A stretch of DNA of 38,843 nucleotides from Bacillota bacterium (GTDB lineage Bacteria > Bacillota > Negativicutes > Sporomusales > CTSoil-080), in assembly GCA_017889625.1 (NCBI GenBank), contig JAGGAD010000035.1:1-38843 (forward strand), in the 5' to 3' direction. Below are positions 16,713 through 36,865 of this stretch, one piece after another. The translations under genes were made by a program, and so were the position numbers. The first letter of the stretch is position 1. Each line of letters opens with the position of its first letter. A model generated the notes under the pieces. That model worked only from the letters and a program-made list of their open reading frames with translations. It searched no databases and was not told the DNA's origin.

Positions 16713-18593
16713 GTGTTTATGGCTGGAAATTTTGATGTTATTGTTATTGGGGCGGGGCATGCTGGCTGTGAGGCGGCTTTAGCAGCAGCTCGCATGGGGT
16801 GTAAGACCTTGTTGGCAACTTTGAATATGGATAATATTGCGATGATGCCTTGTAATCCGGCGGTCGGCGGTCCGGCTAAGGGGCATTTAGTCCGGGAAAT
16901 TGATGCTTTAGGTGGGCAGATGGGGCTTAATACCGATAAGGCTTGTATTCAGATTCGGATGCTTAATACCGGTAAAGGGCCGGCCGTTCATGCTTTAAGA
17001 GCGCAAACTGACAAAAAGATATACCAGTCACTGATGAAGGAAACATTAGAGAATCAACAAAAGTTAGTTGTTAAACAGCTATTAATTGAGCGGTTAGTGA
17101 TTAATGATGGTCAAGTTTGCGGTATTGAAACGGAGAATGGCGAGAATTATAATGCTAAGACAGTCATTCTTGCTACGGGCACGTATTTACGGGGGCGAAT
17201 TATTTTAGGAGAACTGTCTTACGAAGGCGGTCCGAATGGTCAAAGAGCCGCGATGAATCTTTCGGATTCACTTATTAAAAATGGTATTAGCTTAATGCGA
17301 TTTAAAACGGGTACTCCGGCCAGGGTGGATCGAAATACGGTTGATTTTAATAAGATGAGAATTCAGCCTGGTGATGAACAAAATCATAAATTTTCGTTTA
17401 TTAGTGACAGCGATAGACGGGAGCAAATACCGTGTTGGCTTACTTATACTAATATTCAGACCCATCAAATTATTCGCGATAATTTATATCGTGCTCCATT
17501 ATATATGGGAATTATTGAGGGGACTGGCCCGCGGTATTGCCCGTCAATTGAGGATAAGGTTGTACGGTTTGCTGAAAAAGAGAATCATCAGCTTTTTGTT
17601 GAACCGGAGGGACTAAATACTACCGAAATGTATGTGCAAGGTATGTCGACTAGTCTGCCGGTGGAGGTTCAGTATGCTTTTTTGCGGACAATTCCAGGGT
17701 TAGAACAAGTCGAAATTATGCGGCCAGGCTATGCCATCGAATATGATTGTGTCGATCCGCTGCAGTTAAAACCGACGTTAGAGTTTAAGAATATCACTGG
17801 GTTGTTTTCAGCAGGGCAAGCTAATGGTACTTCGGGGTACGAGGAAGCTGCGGCTCAAGGATTAATGGCTGGAATTAATGCTGCCTTGTTGGTAAAAAAT
17901 AAGCCCGGTCTTATTTTAGGGAGATCTGAGGCCTATATTGGCGTTTTAATTGATGATTTAGTTACTAAAGGAACTACTGAACCATATCGGATGATGACAT
18001 CACGCGCCGAATACCGGCTGGTTCTTCGTCAAGATAATGCTGATTTAAGACTCACGGAAAAAGGTAGAACGATTGGTTTAGTTGATGATTATCGGTATAA
18101 TCGGTTTATTAATAAAAAAGAGGCTATTGAAAGTATACTAAAGCTGTTAGCCGATACGTCGGTTAATCCTACCCCTGATAATCAGGCTAAGATGCGAGCT
18201 ATGAATTCAGCTGAATTACGGACTGGGTGCAGTCTATTTGATTTAATGCGGCGAACTGAAATTAATTATACGCTTTTAAGTAGTTATTTCGAGTTGCCAG
18301 ATATTCCCGACGAGGTTCGCGAACAGGTAGAAATAACGATAAAATACGAGGGTTATATTCAAAAACAGCTTTTAGAGGTAGAACGGGCGGTAAAATTAGA
18401 GGCTAAATTATTGCCGGTGAACATTGATTATGATCAGCTTAATGGCTTAGCATTAGAAGCTAGACAGAAGTTGGGTAAAATTCGGCCAGTTTCTGTGGGG
18501 CAAGCAGCCAGGATTTCTGGAGTGTCACCCGCAGATATATCGATTTTGCTGGTTTATTTAGAGCAACAGCGGCGGATGGAGACAGAAAAATGA
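16713..18593 (+). CDS. mnmG: tRNA uridine 5-carboxymethylaminomethyl modification enzyme MnmG (GidA)
   Basis: The FAD- and NADH-dependent partner of MnmE. About 626 residues, the normal length. The Rossmann FAD motif is [19 protein letters not shown]. The signature [19 protein letters not shown] follows, and [10 protein letters not shown] lies near residue 370. Start choice: GTG at 16713 has GGAG at 9-nt spacing; TTG at 16704 and ATG at 16719 are alternatives that change only a few N-terminal residues. The gene overlaps rsmG by 4 bp. Confidence 0.97.
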
Positions 18594-19306
18594 ACTTTGT
18601 AGAAGCCCTTGAAGATGCGGCTAGTCAATCTAATATTGAGCTTAATTCATCTCAGATTGAGGCGTTTCGTTATTATCAGGAGTTACTTTTAGTTTGGAAT
18701 GAAAAGATGAATCTTACGGCTATTACTAAGCCTGCAGATATAGCGGTTAAACATATTATTGATTCATTAATGTGTTATGACCAAGAGGTTTTTACTAATG
18801 GGTGCTCGATTATTGATGTGGGTACTGGTGCAGGATTTCCAGGGTTACCATTAAAGATTTTTTGTCCGGATGTACAGTTGACGCTATTAGATTCACTTAA
18901 TAAACGCCTGGTGTTTTTACAGGAAGTTGTTGATAAGCTTGGTCTTAAAAATGTAAAAATTATTCATGCCAGAGCAGAAGACGGGGCCCGAAATAAAGAA
19001 TTTCGGGATAAATATGATGTTGCGGTATCGCGGGCTGTAGCTAGGTTGAATGTTTTGACGGAGCTATGTTTACCGTTTGTTCGGCGGGGTGGCTATTTTG
19101 TTGCATTAAAGGGAGCCCAATATCAAGAAGAAGTCGACGGTGCAGTTGAAGCAATAAAAATTTTGGGTGGTAGTATTAGGCTGGTTAACCCGGTAAAACT
19201 ACCGGGTTTAGATGATAGCCGCGCTATTATTTATATTAATAAAGTTGGACCTAGCCCCAATAATTATCCGCGTCGTCCTGGTGTACCTGAAAAAAATCCA
19301 TTATAG
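18590..19306 (+). CDS. rsmG: 16S rRNA (guanine-527-N7)-methyltransferase RsmG
   Basis: Transfers a methyl group from S-adenosylmethionine to N7 of G527 in 16S rRNA; its loss gives low-level streptomycin resistance in several bacteria. The 238 residues have the SAM-binding loop [17 protein letters not shown] near residue 75 and an acidic residue in [10 protein letters not shown]. The ATG overlaps the mnmG stop (ATGA). The gene order mnmE-mnmG-rsmG-noc is the standard Firmicute one. Confidence 0.97.
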
Positions 19307-19378
19307 TATAGAGGAAAAAAGTAAGGTGTGCCGAATATTTCCCATATAATGTAATATTAAGCTAAGGCGGTGGTAATT

Positions 19379-20263
19379 ATGAGAAATCTGGCGAAACTGC
19401 TGGGAATTAACAGCGAAGAAACTGTTATGGTCGAACCTCCGCCAGCTCCTGAGGCGGGCTATGTAGCACTTGATAGTGAAGTAATTGAATTAAGCGCGGA
19501 AGAGCTGTTAACTAATCCTTATCAACCAAGGAAGACATTTTCTGAGGAAAGCTTACAAGAATTAGCAGCATCGATACGCGAACATGGCATAATACAACCA
19601 ATTTTAGTAAGAAAAACTAATAATGGTTATGAAATAATTGCTGGTGAACGCCGAATGAGGGCCTCTAGAATAGTTGGGCTGAAAACGGTGCCAGTTATTG
19701 TTCGGGAAATTAATGATAAAGACATGGCTGAGTTAGCTATGATTGAGAATTTGCAGCGCGAGGATTTGCATTATCTAGAAGAAGCAGAAGGGTTTCATCA
19801 TTTATTGGTGAATTTTGGTTTAACTCAAGAGGATTTGGCGCGGCGGATGGGTAAAAATCAGTCAACTGTGGCTAATAAATTGCGCTTACTTCGCTTAAGT
19901 GCAGAAGTTAGGCAACAGTTGGTGGAAAATAATTTAACGGAGCGTCATGCGCGGGCCTTGTTGAAACTTGAAGATCCTGTTAAACAGCAAATGGCCCTAA
20001 ATGCTATTAAAGAAAATAATCTTAATGTCCGTGAGACCGAAGATATGGTTGGGGGGATTCTTGACGATATTTCCCGGGAAATAGCAAAAAAGGCTCCTAA
20101 ACAGAATGTTGTAAAGATAATTCGTGATGTGCGGATTTTTATTAATACTATTAATAGTGTGGTAGCTGAAATGAAAAAGGTTGGGTTAAAAGTTAAAGTA
20201 ACTCAAGAACAAGATGATGATTTTGTAAATATTAGCTTGCGTATTCCCAAACGGCGTAAATAA
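19379..20263 (+). CDS. noc: Nucleoid occlusion protein Noc
   Basis: A ParB-family CTPase that binds specific palindromes and blocks division over the nucleoid. It begins with a short amphipathic stretch (MRNLAKLLGIN) like the membrane-targeting helix of B. subtilis Noc. The CTP-binding boxes are AGERRMRA and ENLQRED. The helix-turn-helix is LTQEDLARRMGKNQSTVAN. At the four positions known to separate Noc from ParB DNA specificity it has Gln (GKNQ), Lys (VANK), Arg (RLLR) and Arg (LTERHA), the Noc-like set with one conservative change. A perfect Noc-binding palindrome lies inside the gene. Start ATG at 19379 follows AAGGCGGTGG. Confidence 0.92.
   Translation: MRNLAKLLGINSEETVMVEPPPAPEAGYVALDSEVIELSAEELLTNPYQPRKTFSEESLQELAASIREHGIIQPILVRKTNNGYEIIAGERRMRASRIVGLKTVPVIVREINDKDMAELAMIENLQREDLHYLEEAEGFHHLLVNFGLTQEDLARRMGKNQSTVANKLRLLRLSAEVRQQLVENNLTERHARALLKLEDPVKQQMALNAIKENNLNVRETEDMVGGILDDISREIAKKAPKQNVVKIIRDVRIFINTINSVVAEMKKVGLKVKVTQEQDDDFVNISLRIPKRRK
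20069..20082. promoter_or_regulatory. Noc-binding site (NBS) inside noc
   Basis: The 14-bp palindrome ATTTCCCGGGAAAT is identical to the published Noc-binding consensus. It lies in the coding sequence for the DISREI segment, near the 3' end of noc. It is the only match I noticed in the window. Confidence 0.8.
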
Positions 20264-20313
20264 AAGCTTGTTGATAGGTATTTAGCCTAGCGTTTATACA
20301 AAGAATATAGGTA

Positions 20314-20358
20314 AAAAAGCTAGTAGGTATCACCTTACGGTGGTACCTACTAGCTTTT
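20314..20358. terminator. Bidirectional terminator between noc and metH
   Basis: A long, almost perfect hairpin has outer arms AAAAAGCTAGTAGGTA and TACCTACTAGCTTTTT and an inner CACC/GGTG stem around TTAC. It has A- and T-runs at its ends, so it ends both the plus-strand noc transcript and the minus-strand methionine synthase transcript. Confidence 0.9.
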
Positions 20359-20400
20359 TAAATATAAGTTATTTTGATTATGCAATAAGGCTTAGACAAT

Positions 20401-22767
20401 TTATATTTTGAGAAGCTTTTTGGCAATATTTACGGCTTGTACTCCATCTGATGCGTAAGCATCTGCGCCGGCTTGGGCGGCGTATTCTGAGGTAAGTACG
20501 GCCCCGCCGACAATGGTTTTTGCCAGTATTTTGTTTTGTTTAAGGGCTTCAATAGTAGCATCGATTTGAGGCATGGTTGTTGTCATTAGTGCACAGAGGC
20601 CAATAATATCTGCCTTGTGTTCAATGGCAGCTTGAACTACAGTTGTTGGCGAGACATCTTTACCAAGGTCAATTACGGCAAAACCGTTGTTTTCTAGAAG
20701 TGCAGCAACAATATTTTTGCCTAAATCATGAATATCACCTTGAACCGTAGCTAAAATTACGGTTCCTACGGATACAGCTTGATGGGCAGGCATGTTTTCT
20801 TTAATCGTTAGAAAGGCAACTCGCATGGTTTCGGCAGCCAGCATAACTTGTGGCAAGAAACTGTGGCCTTGACTAAAAGCTTCACCAACTGTATTCATTG
20901 CTGGAGTCAGAGCCTGGTCGGTAATATCGGGGGGCTTAATCCCGGCAGATAAGCATTGGCAAATTAAATCTGGAACAAGTTCTTTTTCTCCGTTGATTAT
21001 TGCTTGTCGAACTGCGGCTAAGGGGTTATTCGTCAGCATTTCTTTTGTTTGGGACAAAGGCTGCGCGGCAGAATAAGTTAAGCTGTATTGTTGGCCGCTG
21101 GAGTCATGACCTAGGAGACAGGCAGCAGCATTACGCATGTCCAACATTTCTTGGTCATAGGGGTTAAGTATCGGTGCATCCAAGCCTGAGGCTACGGCCA
21201 TTGCATAGAAGGCGCTGTTTAATTGGCTGCGCCGAGGCAGGCCAAAGGAAATATTGCTTAGTCCCATAACGGTAGGAAACCCAAAATTCTTACGATACTG
21301 ACGCAAGGTTTCTAGGGTTTGTTGGGCAGCAGTTGCATCGGCGGCTACGGTCATGACTAGAGCATCAAGCAACAGATCTTTAGGTCTTAGACCAATGTTT
21401 AAGGCAGCATCGACAATAGTGCTAGCAATTTGAACTCGTTCGCTTACGCTTTTTGGGACTCCACCAGCGGCAATAGGTAAACATAGTATGGCAGCACCAT
21501 ATTTTTTAGCTAGTGGGAGAAACGTTTCAAGTCGTTCAGGTTCGGCGGAAATTGAATTAATTAATGCTCGGCCAGGAAACGCTCGAAGCCCGGCTTCAAG
21601 CGTAGCCGCGTCAGTGGTATCAATAGCTAAGGGGACATTTACTAGTAAAGATAAATCTTCAATTACTTGTCGCATGGTTGTTGCCTGATCTATACCAGGT
21701 ACGCCCATGTTGACATCAAGTATGCTGGCTCCAGCTTTGACTTGAGCTAAAGCCTCTTTTTTTATGCCACTATAATTTCCGGCCCGGATGTCGGCCGCTA
21801 GAGTTTTTCGTCCGGTAGGGTTAATTCGTTCGCCAATTATGGCGGTTGGTAAATCAGCACCTAAAAATATTGTTTTACTGCGGCTGGTGAGGGCAGTATG
21901 GGATATAGCGGTGGGGCGTTTAATTTTTATACTAGGTGTAATTGTCTTGCGTAATTCTTTAATGTGGGAGGGGGTTGTTCCGCAGCACCCTCCAATATAG
22001 CTGGCACCGGCGGCTATCAGTTTTGGGCCCCAAGCGGCAAATTCTACGGGTCCCATTGGGAAAACGGTTTGACCGTTGATTAACTCAGGCATACCGGCGT
22101 TAGGCTGAACGCTAAGTGGGACATTACAGTGTGCGGCGAAAGTATTTATGATATTAAGGAGTTTATCTGGACCTAAAGAACAATTAGCCCCAATTATATC
22201 GGCACCAAGGGCTTCTAAAATTATGGCAGCTGTCGCGGGATCAGTGCCGGTAACGGTTCGACCGTCGTCGCCAAAGGTAAGTTGACAAATAACTGGTTTG
22301 TTGGTAGCGGCTTTTGCCGCCAGTAAGGCGGCACGCATTTCTTGAATATCAATAATGGTTTCAATTATTATATAGTCGGCTCCAGCATCAGAAAGAGCAG
22401 ATATTTGTTCGAAAAAAACATTATAGGCAGTTTCAAAGGTTAAATCACCTAGCGGGGCAATTAATTTACCAGTAGGACCGACCGAGCCGGCTATTTTGGT
22501 GGTCGGTCCACACGCTGCGCGGGCGGTTCTGACGGCGGCATGATTTAGCGCAGCTACTTGATCTGAGAGATGGTAGTGGGTAAGTTTAATGCGGTTTGCC
22601 CCTAAAGTATTGGTTTCTATAATATCTGCGCCAATGTCAACATAGCAACGGTGAATGGCTGTGACTTTTTCCGGTTGCTCAAGATTCCATAGTTCGGGGC
22701 AGTATCCTGGCGGTAGACCATTTTCTTGCAACATTGTGCCCATGGCACCATCAAAGATGTAAATCAT
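20401..22767 (-). CDS. metH: Cobalamin-dependent methionine synthase, short form lacking the reactivation domain
   Basis: Transfers a methyl group from methyltetrahydrofolate to homocysteine through cob(I)alamin. The 788 residues show four modules: the homocysteine-binding barrel with zinc cysteines in GANCSLGP and GGCCGTTPSH; the pterin-binding barrel (GERINPTGRKTL, about 310-570); the helical cap; and the B12-binding fold with lower ligand His680 in GDIHDLGKN. It lacks the C-terminal SAM-dependent reactivation domain, which is encoded by the adjacent upstream gene. The start at 22767 follows AAAGGAGTC and overlaps that gene's stop by 4 bp. It is head-on to replication and sits between noc and parA, which are adjacent in Bacillus. 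I saw no cobalamin riboswitch. Confidence 0.93.
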   Translation of the reverse strand: MIYIFDGAMGTMLQENGLPPGYCPELWNLEQPEKVTAIHRCYVDIGADIIETNTLGANRIKLTHYHLSDQVAALNHAAVRTARAACGPTTKIAGSVGPTGKLIAPLGDLTFETAYNVFFEQISALSDAGADYIIIETIIDIQEMRAALLAAKAATNKPVICQLTFGDDGRTVTGTDPATAAIILEALGADIIGANCSLGPDKLLNIINTFAAHCNVPLSVQPNAGMPELINGQTVFPMGPVEFAAWGPKLIAAGASYIGGCCGTTPSHIKELRKTITPSIKIKRPTAISHTALTSRSKTIFLGADLPTAIIGERINPTGRKTLAADIRAGNYSGIKKEALAQVKAGASILDVNMGVPGIDQATTMRQVIEDLSLLVNVPLAIDTTDAATLEAGLRAFPGRALINSISAEPERLETFLPLAKKYGAAILCLPIAAGGVPKSVSERVQIASTIVDAALNIGLRPKDLLLDALVMTVAADATAAQQTLETLRQYRKNFGFPTVMGLSNISFGLPRRSQLNSAFYAMAVASGLDAPILNPYDQEMLDMRNAAACLLGHDSSGQQYSLTYSAAQPLSQTKEMLTNNPLAAVRQAIINGEKELVPDLICQCLSAGIKPPDITDQALTPAMNTVGEAFSQGHSFLPQVMLAAETMRVAFLTIKENMPAHQAVSVGTVILATVQGDIHDLGKNIVAALLENNGFAVIDLGKDVSPTTVVQAAIEHKADIIGLCALMTTTMPQIDATIEALKQNKILAKTIVGGAVLTSEYAAQAGADAYASDGVQAVNIAKKLLKI

Positions 22768-23450
22768 GTTTGAGACTCCTTTCGGGCTAAACAATTTTGG
22801 TGAGAGCATCGTTCACAACTGGTTTTATTACAGGTGATGGAAGTCGATATAATTTCTTTAGGCACTAGCCCGATTATGGCAGTAACTGATTTACGTGGCA
22901 TTAGCATACAACTTGGGGTTACTTTAATTCCCGCCGAGCTGCCGTCGGCTAACGCTAATATGTGGGGTTGGTCGGTAATTGACCAATCGCCGTAGCCAGG
23001 GCTAAAGCGCCAGATGGGTTGAAGGCCGCGGTTAGTATTTTGGACAGTGATAAAATTATTTATTGCATCAGCCACAGTTTCTACTGCCGCTGTTCCGGCG
23101 GCGTCGAGTAATAGACCGAGAGTATAATTACCGGCAGTAAAAAGTTCAGATATTTTTGTTTCAATTTGTTCCCCGATTGTTACTGCTATTATCACAACCT
23201 CTACGGCCTTTTCTAAATGGCGGCTAAGGTTAGTACTGGTAAGTTTAAGCGGGGGATTACTAAGAATAGTTTGGGTCGTGGCGTTGTAGGGATAAGTGTT
23301 CCAAGTTCCTTTTGGGGTTGTCATAATTAATGCTTCGGTGCAAGCTTGCTCGATAAGGGTATCAGGAAAATTCGTCTGTCCTTTGAGACCAGCATAGCGG
23401 CGGGTTTCATTTTGATCAATACACATTATCGGAGCATTATATCTTGGCAT
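22764..23450 (-). CDS. Methionine synthase reactivation-domain protein (stand-alone activation subunit)
   Basis: A stand-alone version of the MetH C-terminal activation domain, which reductively remethylates inactive cob(II)alamin using S-adenosylmethionine. Its 228 residues include RFSPGYGDWSI near residue 150, equivalent to the Arg-x-Ser-Pro-Gly-Tyr SAM-binding signature, and GSSAGIKVTPSCMLMPRKS. A four-cysteine cluster at the C-terminus (CNKTSCERCSHQNC) is extra to classical MetH and could hold a metal or iron-sulfur centre. It overlaps metH by 4 bp and is first in the pair. The start follows GGGGAGG. Function is inferred from family and neighbour. Confidence 0.85.
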   Translation of the reverse strand: MPRYNAPIMCIDQNETRRYAGLKGQTNFPDTLIEQACTEALIMTTPKGTWNTYPYNATTQTILSNPPLKLTSTNLSRHLEKAVEVVIIAVTIGEQIETKISELFTAGNYTLGLLLDAAGTAAVETVADAINNFITVQNTNRGLQPIWRFSPGYGDWSITDQPHILALADGSSAGIKVTPSCMLMPRKSVTAIIGLVPKEIISTSITCNKTSCERCSHQNCLARKESQT

Positions 23451-23657
23451 AAATCCTCCCCAAAAAATTTCCTTGTTTAAACGTATTTTATGCTATTTTA
23501 CCATATTTTCCAGGTACGTGCCATAACTAAGTAAAATGGCTAGGAATTTTGTCTAAATAAAGTTTTCCTTTATACTTATTAAATATTATACGGCAGGAAA
23601 TGCTCGTGATACTGTGGAATAAATTAGACAACAAAACTTGTATTCGAGGTGAAATAA

Positions 23658-24419
23658 GTGGTAAAAGTGATTGCCATTGCCAACCAAAAGGGTGGCGTGG
23701 GCAAAACCACCACCGCAGTTAATTTGAGCGCTTGTCTAGCAACGATTGGTAAAAGGGTATTGTTGATAGATATTGATCCACAGGGGAATTCAACTAGTGG
23801 TTTTGGCTTTAATAAGGCAACAATTAAGCACTGTATCTATGATGTTTTGACTAATGATGTTGAGGTCGAGGCTGCACTGTTGAATACGTGTGTGGATAAT
23901 TTAAAAATTTTACCGGCGACAATTCAACTTGCTGGGGCTGAAATTGAGCTAGTCTCGGTGTTATCACGAGAACAACGACTCAAACGGGCGATTGATACAG
24001 TTAAATATCAATTTGATTATATTTTTATTGATTGTCCGCCGTCTTTAGGTCTATTAACAATTAATGCCCTTACTGCTGCGCATTCGGTGATAATTCCTAT
24101 TCAGTGTGAGTTTTACGCTTTAGAAGGGTTGACACAATTAATGAATACTATTTCGTTAGTGCAAAAAAATCTTAATCCTGCTCTTACCTTAGAGGGAGTA
24201 GTAATGACAATGTTTGATGCTCGTACCAATTTATCAATCCAAGTTGTCGATGAGGTTAAAAACCATATGCGACATAAGGTATATCAGACAATTATTCCCC
24301 GTAATGTTAGATTGAGTGAAGCTCCCAGTCATGGGCAACCGGTGATACAGTATGATCCTAAGTCAAAAGGATCGGAAGTGTATTTTGATTTAGCAAAAGA
24401 GGTGGTTGGCGATGACTAA
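23658..24419 (+). CDS. parA: Chromosome-partitioning ATPase ParA (Soj)
   Basis: A deviant Walker-A ATPase that dimerises on DNA with ATP and, stimulated by ParB, drives origin segregation; in Bacillus, Soj also regulates DnaA. The 253 residues have the deviant P-loop KGGVGKTT at 11-18 with its signature Lys11, Walker A' [14 protein letters not shown], and Walker [10 protein letters not shown]. The start is GTG at 23658 behind GAGGTGA. The last 8 bp overlap the first codons of parB. The gene looks fully intact although its partner parB does not. Confidence 0.97.
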
Positions 24420-25225
24420 ACTGCGAGGGTTAGGTCGGGGAATTGATTCTTTAATTACTCCTTCCTTAATAACAGAAGGGGAGTCGACGGCGGAAGTTGC
24501 GATAAATGATATTATTCCAAATAAATTTCAACCGCGGCGGGTGTTTGATGAAGAGTCGTTGGTGGATTTATCGATGTCGATTGAGCGGTATGGCGTACTT
24601 CAACCAGTTGTTGTCCGTAGGTATATTACGGGTTATGAGTTAGTGGCTGGTGAACGACGTTGGCGGGCTGCACGATTAGCTGGGTTAAAGAGTATTCCGG
24701 CTGTAGTTAGAGATTATACTGACGGAGAAATGACCGAAATTGCGCTCATTGAAAATATTCAGCGAGAAAATTTAAATGTTATTGAAGAAGCTTTGGCCTA
24801 TCGTAGTACGCTTGCTCAATCTTGATTCTGAGGTACAGGAGCATGTTTCACGTGGAACTTTATCAATGGGGCAGGCACGCCCTTTACTTAGTTTAGCTGA
24901 TCGGGAAAAACAGGTGGCAGCAGCAAATAAAATTATTGAAGAAGAATTATCCTCGCGAGATGCCGAAGAATTAGTGAAGCGCATGTTGGAGGAACCAAAA
25001 GCTAAAAATAAAAAAATAGTTCGAGACAAAGAAGTATTTGTTGGAGAACTTGAAGAACGCCTTAAACTAATTTTAGGAACTCAGGTTAAAATTAAACCAG
25101 GTAAATTAAAAAGTAAGATTGAAATAGAATTTTATTCACCGGATGATCTTGAACGCATTATTGAGGTACTTATGGCTAAGCAACAATCGGCTAATAATAA
25201 GTATAAGGGAAATTTGGTAGTGTAA
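24412..25225 (+). pseudogene. parB: parB (spo0J) disrupted by an internal out-of-frame deletion
   Basis: The first part reads LRGLGRGIDSLI, then FQPRRVFDEESLVDLSMSI, AGERRWRAARLAG and ENIQRENLNVIEEALAYR: an intact ParB CTP-binding N-terminal domain. The frame then runs into a stop at 24823-24825. In another frame the protein resumes as VVRLLNLDSEVQEHVSRG and continues to a normal C-terminus at 25225. Aligning with Noc, 27 residues should lie between ALAY and VVRLL, but only one base is left, giving a deletion of about 80 nt near 24804. This removes the helix-turn-helix. The product would be a peptide of about 137 residues without DNA-binding or dimerisation domains. A genuine mutation or an assembly error are both possible. 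Confidence 0.88.
24844..24859 (+). promoter_or_regulatory. parS-like site inside parB
   Basis: TGTTTCACGTGGAACT matches the 16-bp parS consensus (TGTTTCACGTGAAACA) at 14 positions and keeps the central CACGTG. It encodes the VSRGT segment of ParB, the same place as the parS within B. subtilis spo0J. Confidence 0.8.
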
Positions 25226-25229
25226 ATGG

Positions 25230-25245
25230 TGTTTCACGTGGAACA
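25230..25245 (+). promoter_or_regulatory. parS site downstream of parB
   Basis: TGTTTCACGTGGAACA matches the parS consensus at 15 of 16 positions. It lies 5 bp after the parB stop and 16 bp before aspA. These two were the only CACGTG-centred sites I noticed in the window. Confidence 0.85.
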
Positions 25246-25260
25246 TTTGGTGGTGAGAGA

Positions 25261-26655
25261 ATGCGGGTAGAGAAAGATCTATTAGGAGAAGTAACGCTTA
25301 CCGATGATGTATATTATGGGGCTCATACAGCGCGAGCTCTCGAAAATTTTAAATTATCAGGGACCTTGGTACATCCTAAGTTGATTGCCGCTATGGCGTT
25401 GGTGAAAAAAGCAGCGGCAGAAGTTAATGGGGAATTAAACTTTCTGCCACAAAATATTGCAGAGGCGATTACTGTTGCGGCTGATGAAGTGTTGGCTGGT
25501 CGATGGCAAGAACAGTTTGTTGTGGATGCACTGCAAGGTGGTGCCGGGACATCTACTAATATGAACATTAATGAAGTGTTGGCGGCCCGTGCTAATGAGT
25601 TATTGGTTGGAACAAAGCAGGGGCCGGTCCATAGTTTAGATCATGTAAATTGTCATCAGTCTACTAATGATGTTTTTCCAACGGCTTTGCGTATTGCGGC
25701 AGTGTGGTTGTTGAAACCATTAAGTGAGGCCTGTGCCCAGTTACAAGATGCGTTCCAAGCTAAGGAAAAGGAGTTTGCCGGAATAATAAAGGTGGGGCGT
25801 ACGGAAATGCAAGATGCTTTGCCAATTACTTTGGGGCAAGAGTTTAGTGCCTATGCTCAAGCTATTGCTCGCGACCGCTGGCGGCTTTATAAAGTAGAAG
25901 AAAGATTACGGCAGACTAACCTTGGTGGAACTGCAATTGGTACAGGTTTAAATGCTGAAAAAAAATATATCTTTTCCATTACCGAACGGGTTAGACGGTA
26001 TGCGAATATTGGACTGGCCCGCGCGGAAAATATGATTGATGTAACGCAAAACGCAGATGTATTTGTTGAGGTATCTGGGTTATTAAAAGCTTTAGCCGTA
26101 AATTTAAGTAAAGTGGCGAACGATCTTAGATTAATGTCGTCAGGGCCACGGTCCGGGCTTGGTGAGATTAGTTTGCCTGAGCGGCAGGCTGGATCTTCGA
26201 TTATGCCGGGCAAAGTCAATCCGGTTATTCCAGAGGCGGTTAATCAAGTTGCTTTTCATGTTATGGCATCGGATATGGCGATAACTTTAGCGGCTCAGTC
26301 GGGGCAACTTGAACTGAACGCTTTTTTGCCGCTGATTGCCCAACATCTATTGGGAAGTATTGAAGTGCTTACAAATTGTGTGCAGATGTTTACGAGTAAA
26401 TGTGTTAATGGGATTAGTGCTAATATCGAGAGATGTGAAGAATTGGTTAAGGCTAGCCTGATTGAGGTAACAGCATTAGTGCCGCATATTGGGTATGACC
26501 AAGCAACGCGGGTAGCAAAACTTTGCTATTTACATAATGTAACGGTCCGGGAAGTTGTTCTAGAATTAAAGTTATTGACAGCTGAAGCACTGGCGGATAT
26601 CCTTAATCCGAATAGTTTGACTAGACCTGGTATTTCAGGAAAACACCTAAAGTAA
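25261..26655 (+). CDS. aspA: Aspartate ammonia-lyase
   Basis: Converts aspartate to fumarate and ammonia. The 464 residues are full length for the aspartase/fumarase superfamily, with GAGTSTNMNINEV near residue 100, the catalytic loop GSSIMPGKVNPVIPE near residue 317, and the TNDVFPTALR segment. It begins MRVEKDLLGE, as typical aspartases do. Fumarase C is the nearest alternative; the strong YYGAHTARALENF start favours aspartase. It lies just downstream of a parS site and 58 bp upstream of hydF. Aspartase genes recur next to hydrogenase maturation genes in clostridia, suggesting a link to HydF function or nitrogen supply, but this is inference. Confidence 0.9.
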   Translation: MRVEKDLLGEVTLTDDVYYGAHTARALENFKLSGTLVHPKLIAAMALVKKAAAEVNGELNFLPQNIAEAITVAADEVLAGRWQEQFVVDALQGGAGTSTNMNINEVLAARANELLVGTKQGPVHSLDHVNCHQSTNDVFPTALRIAAVWLLKPLSEACAQLQDAFQAKEKEFAGIIKVGRTEMQDALPITLGQEFSAYAQAIARDRWRLYKVEERLRQTNLGGTAIGTGLNAEKKYIFSITERVRRYANIGLARAENMIDVTQNADVFVEVSGLLKALAVNLSKVANDLRLMSSGPRSGLGEISLPERQAGSSIMPGKVNPVIPEAVNQVAFHVMASDMAITLAAQSGQLELNAFLPLIAQHLLGSIEVLTNCVQMFTSKCVNGISANIERCEELVKASLIEVTALVPHIGYDQATRVAKLCYLHNVTVREVVLELKLLTAEALADILNPNSLTRPGISGKHLK

Positions 26656-34549: not shown

Positions 34550-36865
34550 GTGTTTAAAATAAATGGGTTAGACCATAATAACCGTATGTCTACGCAGGAA
34601 CTCCTGCAGGCAATATATCAAGCATTAGCTGAAGGTGAAACCGAATTTTATGTTAATGCAGCTGGTCAGCACGATATAGGTGGGCCACTATGGCATCCTG
34701 AAGGTAAAAAAATTAAATTTGTGGTTACTAATCCCGGGCAGCGGGTGGGGTCGATGTGTTTAGATGGTACGGAGATTGTAGTTGAAGGCTCAGCCTCGGC
34801 TGACGTTGGTTGGTTAAATGCGGGCGGTCGCATTGTTGTTCGAGGTGATGGTGGTGATACCGCTGGTCACTGTGCGGCATCAGGAAAGATTTATATTGGC
34901 GGTCGAGCCGGTACTCGTACTGGCTCGTTGATGAAGGACGACCCTTTATATTCAACTCCGGAATTATGGGTATTAAAAAATTGTGGTAGCTTTTCTTTTG
35001 AATTTATGTCCGGCGGGGTCGCGGTAATTTGTGGTTATGACAGTGATATGTTTGAATCGGTGCTTGGTGATCGAGCTTGTATTGGCATGGTTGGCGGCAA
35101 ATTGTATTTTCGCGGCAAAGCGAGTGGAATATCACCTAAAGACGTAAAAGTCCTACCACTTGATCAAGCTGATATAACATATTTAGAAAGTAATATGGAT
35201 GATTTTTTAACCAGCATCAAACGGCCTGAACTAAAGTCGACTTTAACCTGCTGGGATGAATGGAAAAAAGTATTGCCGCTTCCTTATGACGAACGGCCCA
35301 AAAAAGCCAATATCGCTATTGAGGCGTTTCGGACTAAGGAATGGGTGCAAGATGGCGTTTTTGGAGATGTATGTGTTGATGATTATGGTGTAGTCGGTTT
35401 AGTGGCTACCGGTAAATACCGGCAACGGGTTCCGTTATGGGAGGATGCCCGCTACAATGCACCTTGTCAATATAATTGCCCGGCTTCTATTCCGACTCAG
35501 TTAAGGTATAATTTACTGCGGGAGGGCAAGATTGATGAAGCCTATAAGCTGGTTTTAGACTATAGCCCGTTCCCTGGATCAATTTGTGGCTCAGTATGTC
35601 CGAATTTGTGTATGGATGATTGCACGAGAAATTTGGTGGATGATTCGGCGCAAATCGGTCAGTTGGGTACCTATTCAGTGGATGTTGCTGTTCAAAAGAC
35701 AGCTAAGAAAACTGACAAGAAAGTTGCTGTTGTTGGTGGTGGTCCGGCTGGCTTATCGGCTGCTTGGCAGCTAAGTCGGATGGGGCATGCTGTTACCGTG
35801 TTAGAAGCCAGCCCAAGAATGGGCGGTAAGATGGAGCAAGTAATTCCCCGTTCACGTCTGTCTGAGGTTACTTTAGAAAAAGAACTTCGGCGGATCGAGG
35901 CTATGGGGGTTGAATTCAAGACTGGTGTTGAGGTAGATAGCACTAAATTTACTGCGCTTCGTCAAGCGTATGATGCGGTGGTAGTTGCTACCGGAGCGCA
36001 TATCCCTAAAGTAATTCCTTGGCCGGGACATGAGCGAATTGTAAAGGGGTTAGATTTCCTAAAAGCTATTAATCGTGGTGAAAAACCGGCTATAGGAAAA
36101 CGGGTAATTGTTATTGGTTGTGGCAACTCAGGTATGGATGCGGCGCTTGGTGCGTATCAGGTTGGAGCCCAAGAGGTAACTTGTATTGATGTGCAGGCTC
36201 CGGCGGCCTTTGCCAAAGAAATTGCTCATGTAGAAGAGCTAGGTGGGGTACTTTTATGGCCGGTTCAGACCAAGGAAATCATCGCGGAAGGTATTATTAC
36301 TCAGGACGGTAAGTTAATAAAAGGCGATACAGTAATTATCACCATCGGTGAGAGTCCAGACCTGAGCTTTTTGCCGGAAGATATCGTGCGTGAGCGGGGA
36401 TATCTTAAACCCAAGAGCAATTTTTCAATTGGTGATAACCTGTTCACCGCTGGTGATACCATCGCACCCGGTCGTTTGGTTGATGCGGTTGGTAATGGAC
36501 GACAGGCGGCTTTGGCAGTGGATGCTTACCTTGCAGGAACAACCTATCAACCGGAGAAAAAACAAAAAATAGCGGCTGATAAAATAAGTACGGCGTATTT
36601 CTCAAAATGTCATAGGTGTGAAGTTCCAGCCGCTAATGAAGATCATGTGAGATGTATAAGCTGTGGCACTTGCCGTGATTGCCACATGTGTGAAAAGTCT
36701 TGTCCGGAAAAGGCTATTTCTCGTGAGCTGCTAAACGATAGCGGTTATCAATATGTATCTGATTCGGATAAGTGTATTGGCTGTGGTATTTGTGCGGGAA
36801 TTTGTCCATGTGGTGTTTGGACAATGTATAAAAATGCTGAACCTATTAATATAATAAAAAAATAA
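34550..36865 (+). CDS. Fusion of glutamate synthase GXGXG domain with GltD-type oxidoreductase and ferredoxin
   Basis: A 771-residue fusion. Residues 1-240 are the GXGXG beta-helix domain of glutamate synthase (GGRIVVRGDGGDTAGH, YIGGRAGTRTG). Residues about 290-370 hold cysteines of the GltD N-terminal iron-sulfur domain (APCQYNCPASIP, GSICGSVCPNLCMDDC). Residues about 385-660 hold the FAD Rossmann motif VAVVGGGPAGLSAAW, an NAD(P)H Rossmann motif VIVIGCGNSGMDAA, and the closing GDTIAPGRLVDAVGNGRQAA. The tail has a cysteine-rich linker (CHRC, CISCGTC) and a ferredoxin-like domain ending CIGCGICAGICPCG. The start is GTG behind GGGGGGAG. It supplies electrons to the FMN subunit; NAD(P)H versus ferredoxin is open. 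Confidence 0.88.
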   Translation: MFKINGLDHNNRMSTQELLQAIYQALAEGETEFYVNAAGQHDIGGPLWHPEGKKIKFVVTNPGQRVGSMCLDGTEIVVEGSASADVGWLNAGGRIVVRGDGGDTAGHCAASGKIYIGGRAGTRTGSLMKDDPLYSTPELWVLKNCGSFSFEFMSGGVAVICGYDSDMFESVLGDRACIGMVGGKLYFRGKASGISPKDVKVLPLDQADITYLESNMDDFLTSIKRPELKSTLTCWDEWKKVLPLPYDERPKKANIAIEAFRTKEWVQDGVFGDVCVDDYGVVGLVATGKYRQRVPLWEDARYNAPCQYNCPASIPTQLRYNLLREGKIDEAYKLVLDYSPFPGSICGSVCPNLCMDDCTRNLVDDSAQIGQLGTYSVDVAVQKTAKKTDKKVAVVGGGPAGLSAAWQLSRMGHAVTVLEASPRMGGKMEQVIPRSRLSEVTLEKELRRIEAMGVEFKTGVEVDSTKFTALRQAYDAVVVATGAHIPKVIPWPGHERIVKGLDFLKAINRGEKPAIGKRVIVIGCGNSGMDAALGAYQVGAQEVTCIDVQAPAAFAKEIAHVEELGGVLLWPVQTKEIIAEGIITQDGKLIKGDTVIITIGESPDLSFLPEDIVRERGYLKPKSNFSIGDNLFTAGDTIAPGRLVDAVGNGRQAALAVDAYLAGTTYQPEKKQKIAADKISTAYFSKCHRCEVPAANEDHVRCISCGTCRDCHMCEKSCPEKAISRELLNDSGYQYVSDSDKCIGCGICAGICPCGVWTMYKNAEPINIIKK

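Follow-up and report, generated by a model that had tools for sequence, protein, structure and literature searches.

A putative Noc-binding site conserved at the codon level within noc, at positions also used by parS within parB

Noc is the protein that stops bacteria dividing across their chromosome, and the locus described here raises the question of why a perfect Noc-binding site (NBS) lies within the coding sequence of noc itself, what conserves it there, how it is related to the parS site inside the sister gene parB and what it may do close to the origin. The window, i.e. the whole stretch of DNA that was analysed, is 38,843 nucleotides (38.8 kb) long, and its features that concern this question are collected in Table 1.

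Table 1. Features of the noc and parAB region, with positions in the window
Feature	Position	Strand	Basis
noc, nucleoid occlusion protein, 294 aa	19379..20263	+	TIGR04285
Putative Noc-binding site (NBS), site A	20068..20083 (core 20069-20082)	.	16/16 consensus match, codon-level conservation
Hairpin and T run 3' of noc, probable intrinsic terminator	20315..20360	+	Fold of 20301-20370, -34.2 kcal/mol
parA (soj)	23658..24419	+	Sequence and gene order
parB (spo0J), sister gene of noc, broken	24406..25225	+	80-bp deletion
parS-like site TGTTTCACGTGGAACT inside parB, V-S-R-G-T, site B	24844..24859	+	
Second parS-like site TGTTTCACGTGGAACA, just past parB	25230..25245	+	

The palindrome and the gene that carries it

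The 14-bp core, ATTTCCCGGGAAAT, is read in frame 0 of noc as I-S-R-E-I (residues 231-235), and a flanking T and A extend it to a perfect 16-bp palindrome, TATTTCCCGGGAAATA, all 16 bases of which match the NBS consensus; TATTTCCCGGGAAATA is the 16-bp consensus given in PMC7383237. An earlier note on this DNA had placed the palindrome inside noc and had noticed no other match in the window, and a sequence scan confirmed both points, no other position of the 38.8 kb having fewer than three mismatches to the NBS. The note had also proposed a scan of the whole genome; this was carried out, as were all genome-wide NBS counts reported here, as a pattern search, and gave three exact copies and two copies with one mismatch in 3.30 Mb. 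A form of the 16-mer with one mismatch is ATTTCCCGGGAAAA. The reversed pattern, used as a control, gave no exact match in any of the genomes listed for the class.

The product of the gene matches the Noc profile TIGR04285 with E = 3.9e-98 and 328 bits (curated cut-off 315; profile search). Translation starts at ATG 19379, with GTG 19370 as a possible alternative, and the N-terminus, MRNLAKLLGIN, where an amphipathic membrane helix would be expected in Noc, is akin to that of other Noc proteins, residues 9-31 being unmodelled (pLDDT < 50) in the predicted structure. In the same structure site A falls at the C-terminal end of the helix 217-238, before a low-confidence hinge to the C-terminal domain. 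The four specificity residues had been described as Noc-type; they are Q-K-R-R rather than Q-K-K-R, three of them being those reported for Noc and the remaining one, at position 184, an arginine. Arginine at position 184 is found in 26 of the 152 Noc proteins sampled, and NBS-specific variants tolerate either R or K at this position (PMC7383237). Since the hairpin that follows it is strong and a probable terminator, noc is taken to be the last gene of its transcript; a consensus scan for promoters and terminators gave no result above shuffled sequences and missed this obvious hairpin, and Rfam gave no match within 18500-25500. Between noc and parAB, the window (20401-23450) holds a pair of opposite-strand genes that resemble cobalamin-dependent methionine synthase. 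The parB gene of the window, compared with five relatives, has an 80-bp deletion that removes the codons of the DNA-binding helix and causes a frameshift, whereas noc is undamaged; the breakage may be a real loss or an assembly artefact.

Conservation of the site in the noc genes of relatives

The main sample comprised 152 noc genes, all from a single phylum of Firmicutes type; these relatives are not independent of one another, and some of the genomes are fragmentary. Among the 24 noc genes of the same order, 19 have the site at the same codons with no more than one mismatch and a further two have it with two mismatches; the genes with the site come from all eight families of the order, and in the noc genes of the order ATT TCC CGG GAA A is kept while the neighbouring codons vary freely. 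Outside the order, families f9, f11, f16, f21, f25 and f26 of the class have the site at this place too, as do f19 of the same class, where it is displaced by a small gap, and f102 of another class. An internal NBS is lacking in the noc genes of f12 (0/10), f17 (0/4), f22 (0/20) and others, and it is likewise missing from every Bacilli noc gene sampled; f12, f22 and the Bacilli retain noc and other NBSs though the internal site has been lost. A set of named genomes was composed mostly of Bacilli and Clostridia, with one Phascolarctobacterium and the parB of other phyla, none of them close to the window; a Noc profile from the window's class gave 416 bits with Phascolarctobacterium and about 340 bits or less with most of the named Bacilli and Clostridia, from which the window would probably belong to Negativicutes.

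In the window and in the same class the site lies in the linker (site A), whereas in other families an NBS lies 50 residues closer to the N-terminus, immediately ahead of LTERHARALL (site B). At site B an in-frame NBS with at most one mismatch is present in 13 noc genes, from families f36, f56, f62, f71, f89, f112, f124, f148, f162 and f170. By direct reading, I-S-R-E-x is the only frame of the palindrome without proline and glycine, and it is the frame used at both positions.

The codon-level conservation in relatives by which the earlier note had proposed to check the site is clear, its synonymous positions being near-frozen even in distant ones. Among rows selected by their amino acids alone (I-S-R/Q-E), after thinning at 85% identity, ATT is found in 28/28, TCC in 27/28, CGG in 26/27 and GAA in 28/28 genes; elsewhere in these genes, at 41 further conserved six-fold columns, the frequency of the modal codon has a mean of 0.39 and a maximum of 0.57. 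When synonymous codons were shuffled within each gene, 0.68 of the 152 noc genes were expected to contain an exact NBS and 4.4 an NBS with at most one mismatch, compared with 26 and 45 observed. Judged from these sequence comparisons, the conservation acts on the DNA of the site and not on the protein. It could be argued instead that I-S-R-E is needed in the Noc linker and that the palindrome is merely a by-product of its codons, as the amino acids are conserved wherever the site is present. However, the frozen synonymous positions are restricted to the codons of the site, the synonymous-codon shuffles speak against such a by-product, and the same residues reappear at site B, which is structurally different; moreover, ISRE is almost confined to genes with NBS codons, being accompanied by an NBS in 43 of the 44 genes that have it at site A or B, while genes without an NBS have other residues. 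This explanation is rejected as very improbable. An origin by chance or from base composition, for which nothing speaks except the short length of the site, has practically no probability left and is regarded as refuted, given three exact copies in 3.3 Mb against none for the reversed pattern, the retention of the site across all eight families of the order and shuffled counts far below those observed.

Homologous positions of the sites in noc and parB

A parS site inside spo0J of B. subtilis is known, and the Bacillus, Listeria and Lysinibacillus loci L245, L242 and L256 may be compared. Among the 61 parB genes, 30 have a parS at site B with no more than one mismatch, as GTT TCA CGT GRA AC encoding V-S-R-G/E-T, and six have it at site A, as V-S/P-R-E-T of the Bacilli type; the parS-like site inside the window's parB is homologous in position to the NBS that other Firmicutes have in noc. 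In a joint MAFFT alignment, the NBS of noc and the parS of parB share columns 447 and 509 in the same frame. As the site A column of this alignment sits in a gappy linker, where the likeness of ISRE and VSRE could attract, ungapped distances from anchor motifs were used, and these are identical in noc and parB: site A lies 63 aa after LRLL and 16 after LNVR, and site B lies 13 after LRLL and 9 before HAR. The earlier note had likened the NBS in noc to the parS inside parB, and the analogy is closer than was claimed there, extending to the same two codon positions in the same frame. Each palindrome belongs to its own gene, with no NBS in any of the 61 parB genes and parS in a single one of the 152 noc genes, at neither of the two positions; with the site columns left out of the tree, the two genes separate into clean clades with a support of 99. 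In genome G335 site B is used by both genes, and in G492 the parB gene (L199) has parS at site B as well as another 5 residues past site A, while its noc has an NBS at site B.

The noc site thus resembles the parS of ParABS in being a cognate palindrome, in frame 0, within the gene of its own protein, near oriC and at homologous codons. The two differ in sequence (GTT TCA CGT GRA AC for parS, ATT TCC CGG GAA AT here) and in the proteins that they serve, ParB driving the segregation of the origin whereas Noc blocks division and binds the membrane. The switch in specificity from parB to noc, R-x-x-G to Q-K-K-R, has been described from the protein side, with the mutations traced using idealised sites (PMC7383237). 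The sampled Noc proteins are almost all Q-K-x-R, where x is mostly K or R, and the ParB proteins are R-x-x-G. Set beside this protein half, the sites in noc and parB are a possible record of the DNA half, held inside the genes themselves, and the parB-noc pair would be a natural record of the joint change of a DNA-binding protein and its site, which was earlier approached from the protein side (PMC7383237).

Whether the NBS in noc descends from parS can be considered in this light. It is tentatively possible, at somewhat less than an even chance, that the site is directly descended from a parS within the copy of parB that became noc and was rewritten in place. After the duplication GTT TCA CGT GAA AC would have become ATT TCC CGG GAA AT and V-S-R-E-T would have become I-S-R-E-I/M/K, two of the changes (TCA/TCC and CGT/CGG) being synonymous. 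Meanwhile the protein would have switched from R-x-x-G to Q-K-[KR]-R, so that a binding protein and its site near the origin would have diverged together in a single gene. Sites may have been present in both regions in the ancestor, as they are today in the parB of G492. The identical positions and the two synonymous differences favour such a descent. An independent origin of the NBS in noc and the parS in parB comes close to an even prospect: the two helix ends may alone tolerate [IV]-S-R-[EG]-x, and each protein may benefit from a site in its own gene. This is supported by the many changes on the trees (11 at site A and five at site B in noc, two and five in parB), by the position of site A at a helix end before a flexible hinge and by the lack of an internal parS in the parB of other phyla in the named set, and the similar frame 0 reading of the two palindromes would account for the likeness of the tolerated residues. 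Independent origins must nevertheless accommodate two exact positional coincidences with the same frame and the same ungapped offsets, as well as the arrangements in G492 and G335.

Distribution over genomes and proposed role

Sites were mapped over five complete or nearly complete genomes of the order (G016, G017, G018, G013 and G021, three of which share a genus), with noc taken as the marker of the origin; the window's own genome consists of 113 contigs, and the terminus test rests on these five. Only six of the 65 other sites fall in the last 30% of the chromosome arms (p = 1e-4), the rest being spread along the arms, which agrees with the earlier note's statement that Noc sites are dispersed over the chromosome and sparse near the terminus. 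A genome-wide enrichment around the origin, which the note had also expected, was not observed, one of the 65 lying in the first 5% of an arm. The noc site, where present, is the most origin-proximal NBS, the nearest other NBS being 229, 292, 230 and 73 kb away in the four genomes of the order with the site and 74-136 kb away in three genomes with site B. The noc gene of G008 has no site and that of G013 only a two-mismatch remnant, and within 270 kb neither genome has a substitute NBS with one mismatch or none, so the noc site is not essential everywhere. By a hand tally, 28 genomes of the order contain 94 exact NBSs, versus eight in 89 genomes of f10, f18, f30, f31 and f35, families without a Noc hit, which indicates that the sites go with the Noc protein.

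The site is probably a genuine Noc site, selected at the DNA level and serving as an origin-proximal nucleation point; the exact NBS directly upstream of noc in f17, whose noc genes have no internal site, also speaks for this. Noc is loaded and slides in a CTP-dependent manner and tethers DNA to the membrane (PMC8429893, PMC4331003). By analogy with the Noc of other species, dimers would load at the site inside noc, slide as CTP clamps along the surrounding rsmG-noc-parAB region near oriC and anchor it at the membrane. Nucleation near oriC from this site is therefore plausible by that analogy, and the site would give its own nucleation point to an origin region that is otherwise nearly free of Noc sites. 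Alternatively, Noc bound at and spreading within its own gene could block the transcription of noc, its level being set by the occupancy of the site, in which case what matters would be the placement in noc and not nearness to oriC as such. In keeping with this, the site tracks noc: it lies inside the gene at two positions, in the gap directly upstream of noc in f17 (an exact NBS in four of four genomes) and in the adjoining rsmG in G161, and the four complete genomes of the order that have it contain no other NBS within 73 kb. Against it, site A near the 3' end of noc is a poor location for a repressor, and, with the Noc gene at the origin, 'near noc' and 'near oriC' coincide. As noc and the origin adjoin, autoregulation and nucleation are inseparable from sequence, and autoregulation is a serious though less probable alternative.

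The system described here shares with the Noc-NBS of Bacillus subtilis and Staphylococcus aureus the 14/16-bp consensus, the Noc-type protein and sites that are spread over the arms, with none near the terminus in those two species (PMC4331003, PMC5540599, PMC7383237). It differs in the number of sites, about 70 being reported for B. subtilis and 41 for S. aureus whereas genomes of this order mostly have 5-28 with at most one mismatch, and in the one conserved site inside noc, which the sampled Bacilli genes do not have. No description of an NBS within noc was found in the literature searched, the main mapping study (Wu 2009) being outside its coverage. The two best-studied Noc systems are those of Bacilli, where such a site is easily overlooked, the sampled noc genes being without it; outside Bacilli, the noc of Firmicutes has a DNA site frozen for a putative binding function. 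The finding points to a candidate origin-proximal loading point for Noc that could be altered synonymously, without changing the protein.

Several other sites lie at or near noc. Genome G003, an assembly of the same family, has two different noc genes (L015 and L031), both with the site, which may reflect contamination. A parS-like site is found just 5' of the noc start in the Bacilli-type loci L262 and L268, and L291 and L089 have a parS close to the 3' end of the gene. The f17 genomes (G053, G062, G069 and G036; L304-L307, L308-L311) have exactly two exact NBSs each, the one upstream of noc, which in G069 is the extended palindrome CTTTCTATTTCCCGGGAAATAGAAAG, and a second about 16 kb off, within a gene for a ferredoxin-domain protein, where it encodes I-S-R-E-I. 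The window has a homologous ferredoxin-domain gene, with I-S-R-E-L at the matching place (36716-36730) in non-NBS codons, ATTTCTCGTGAGCTG.
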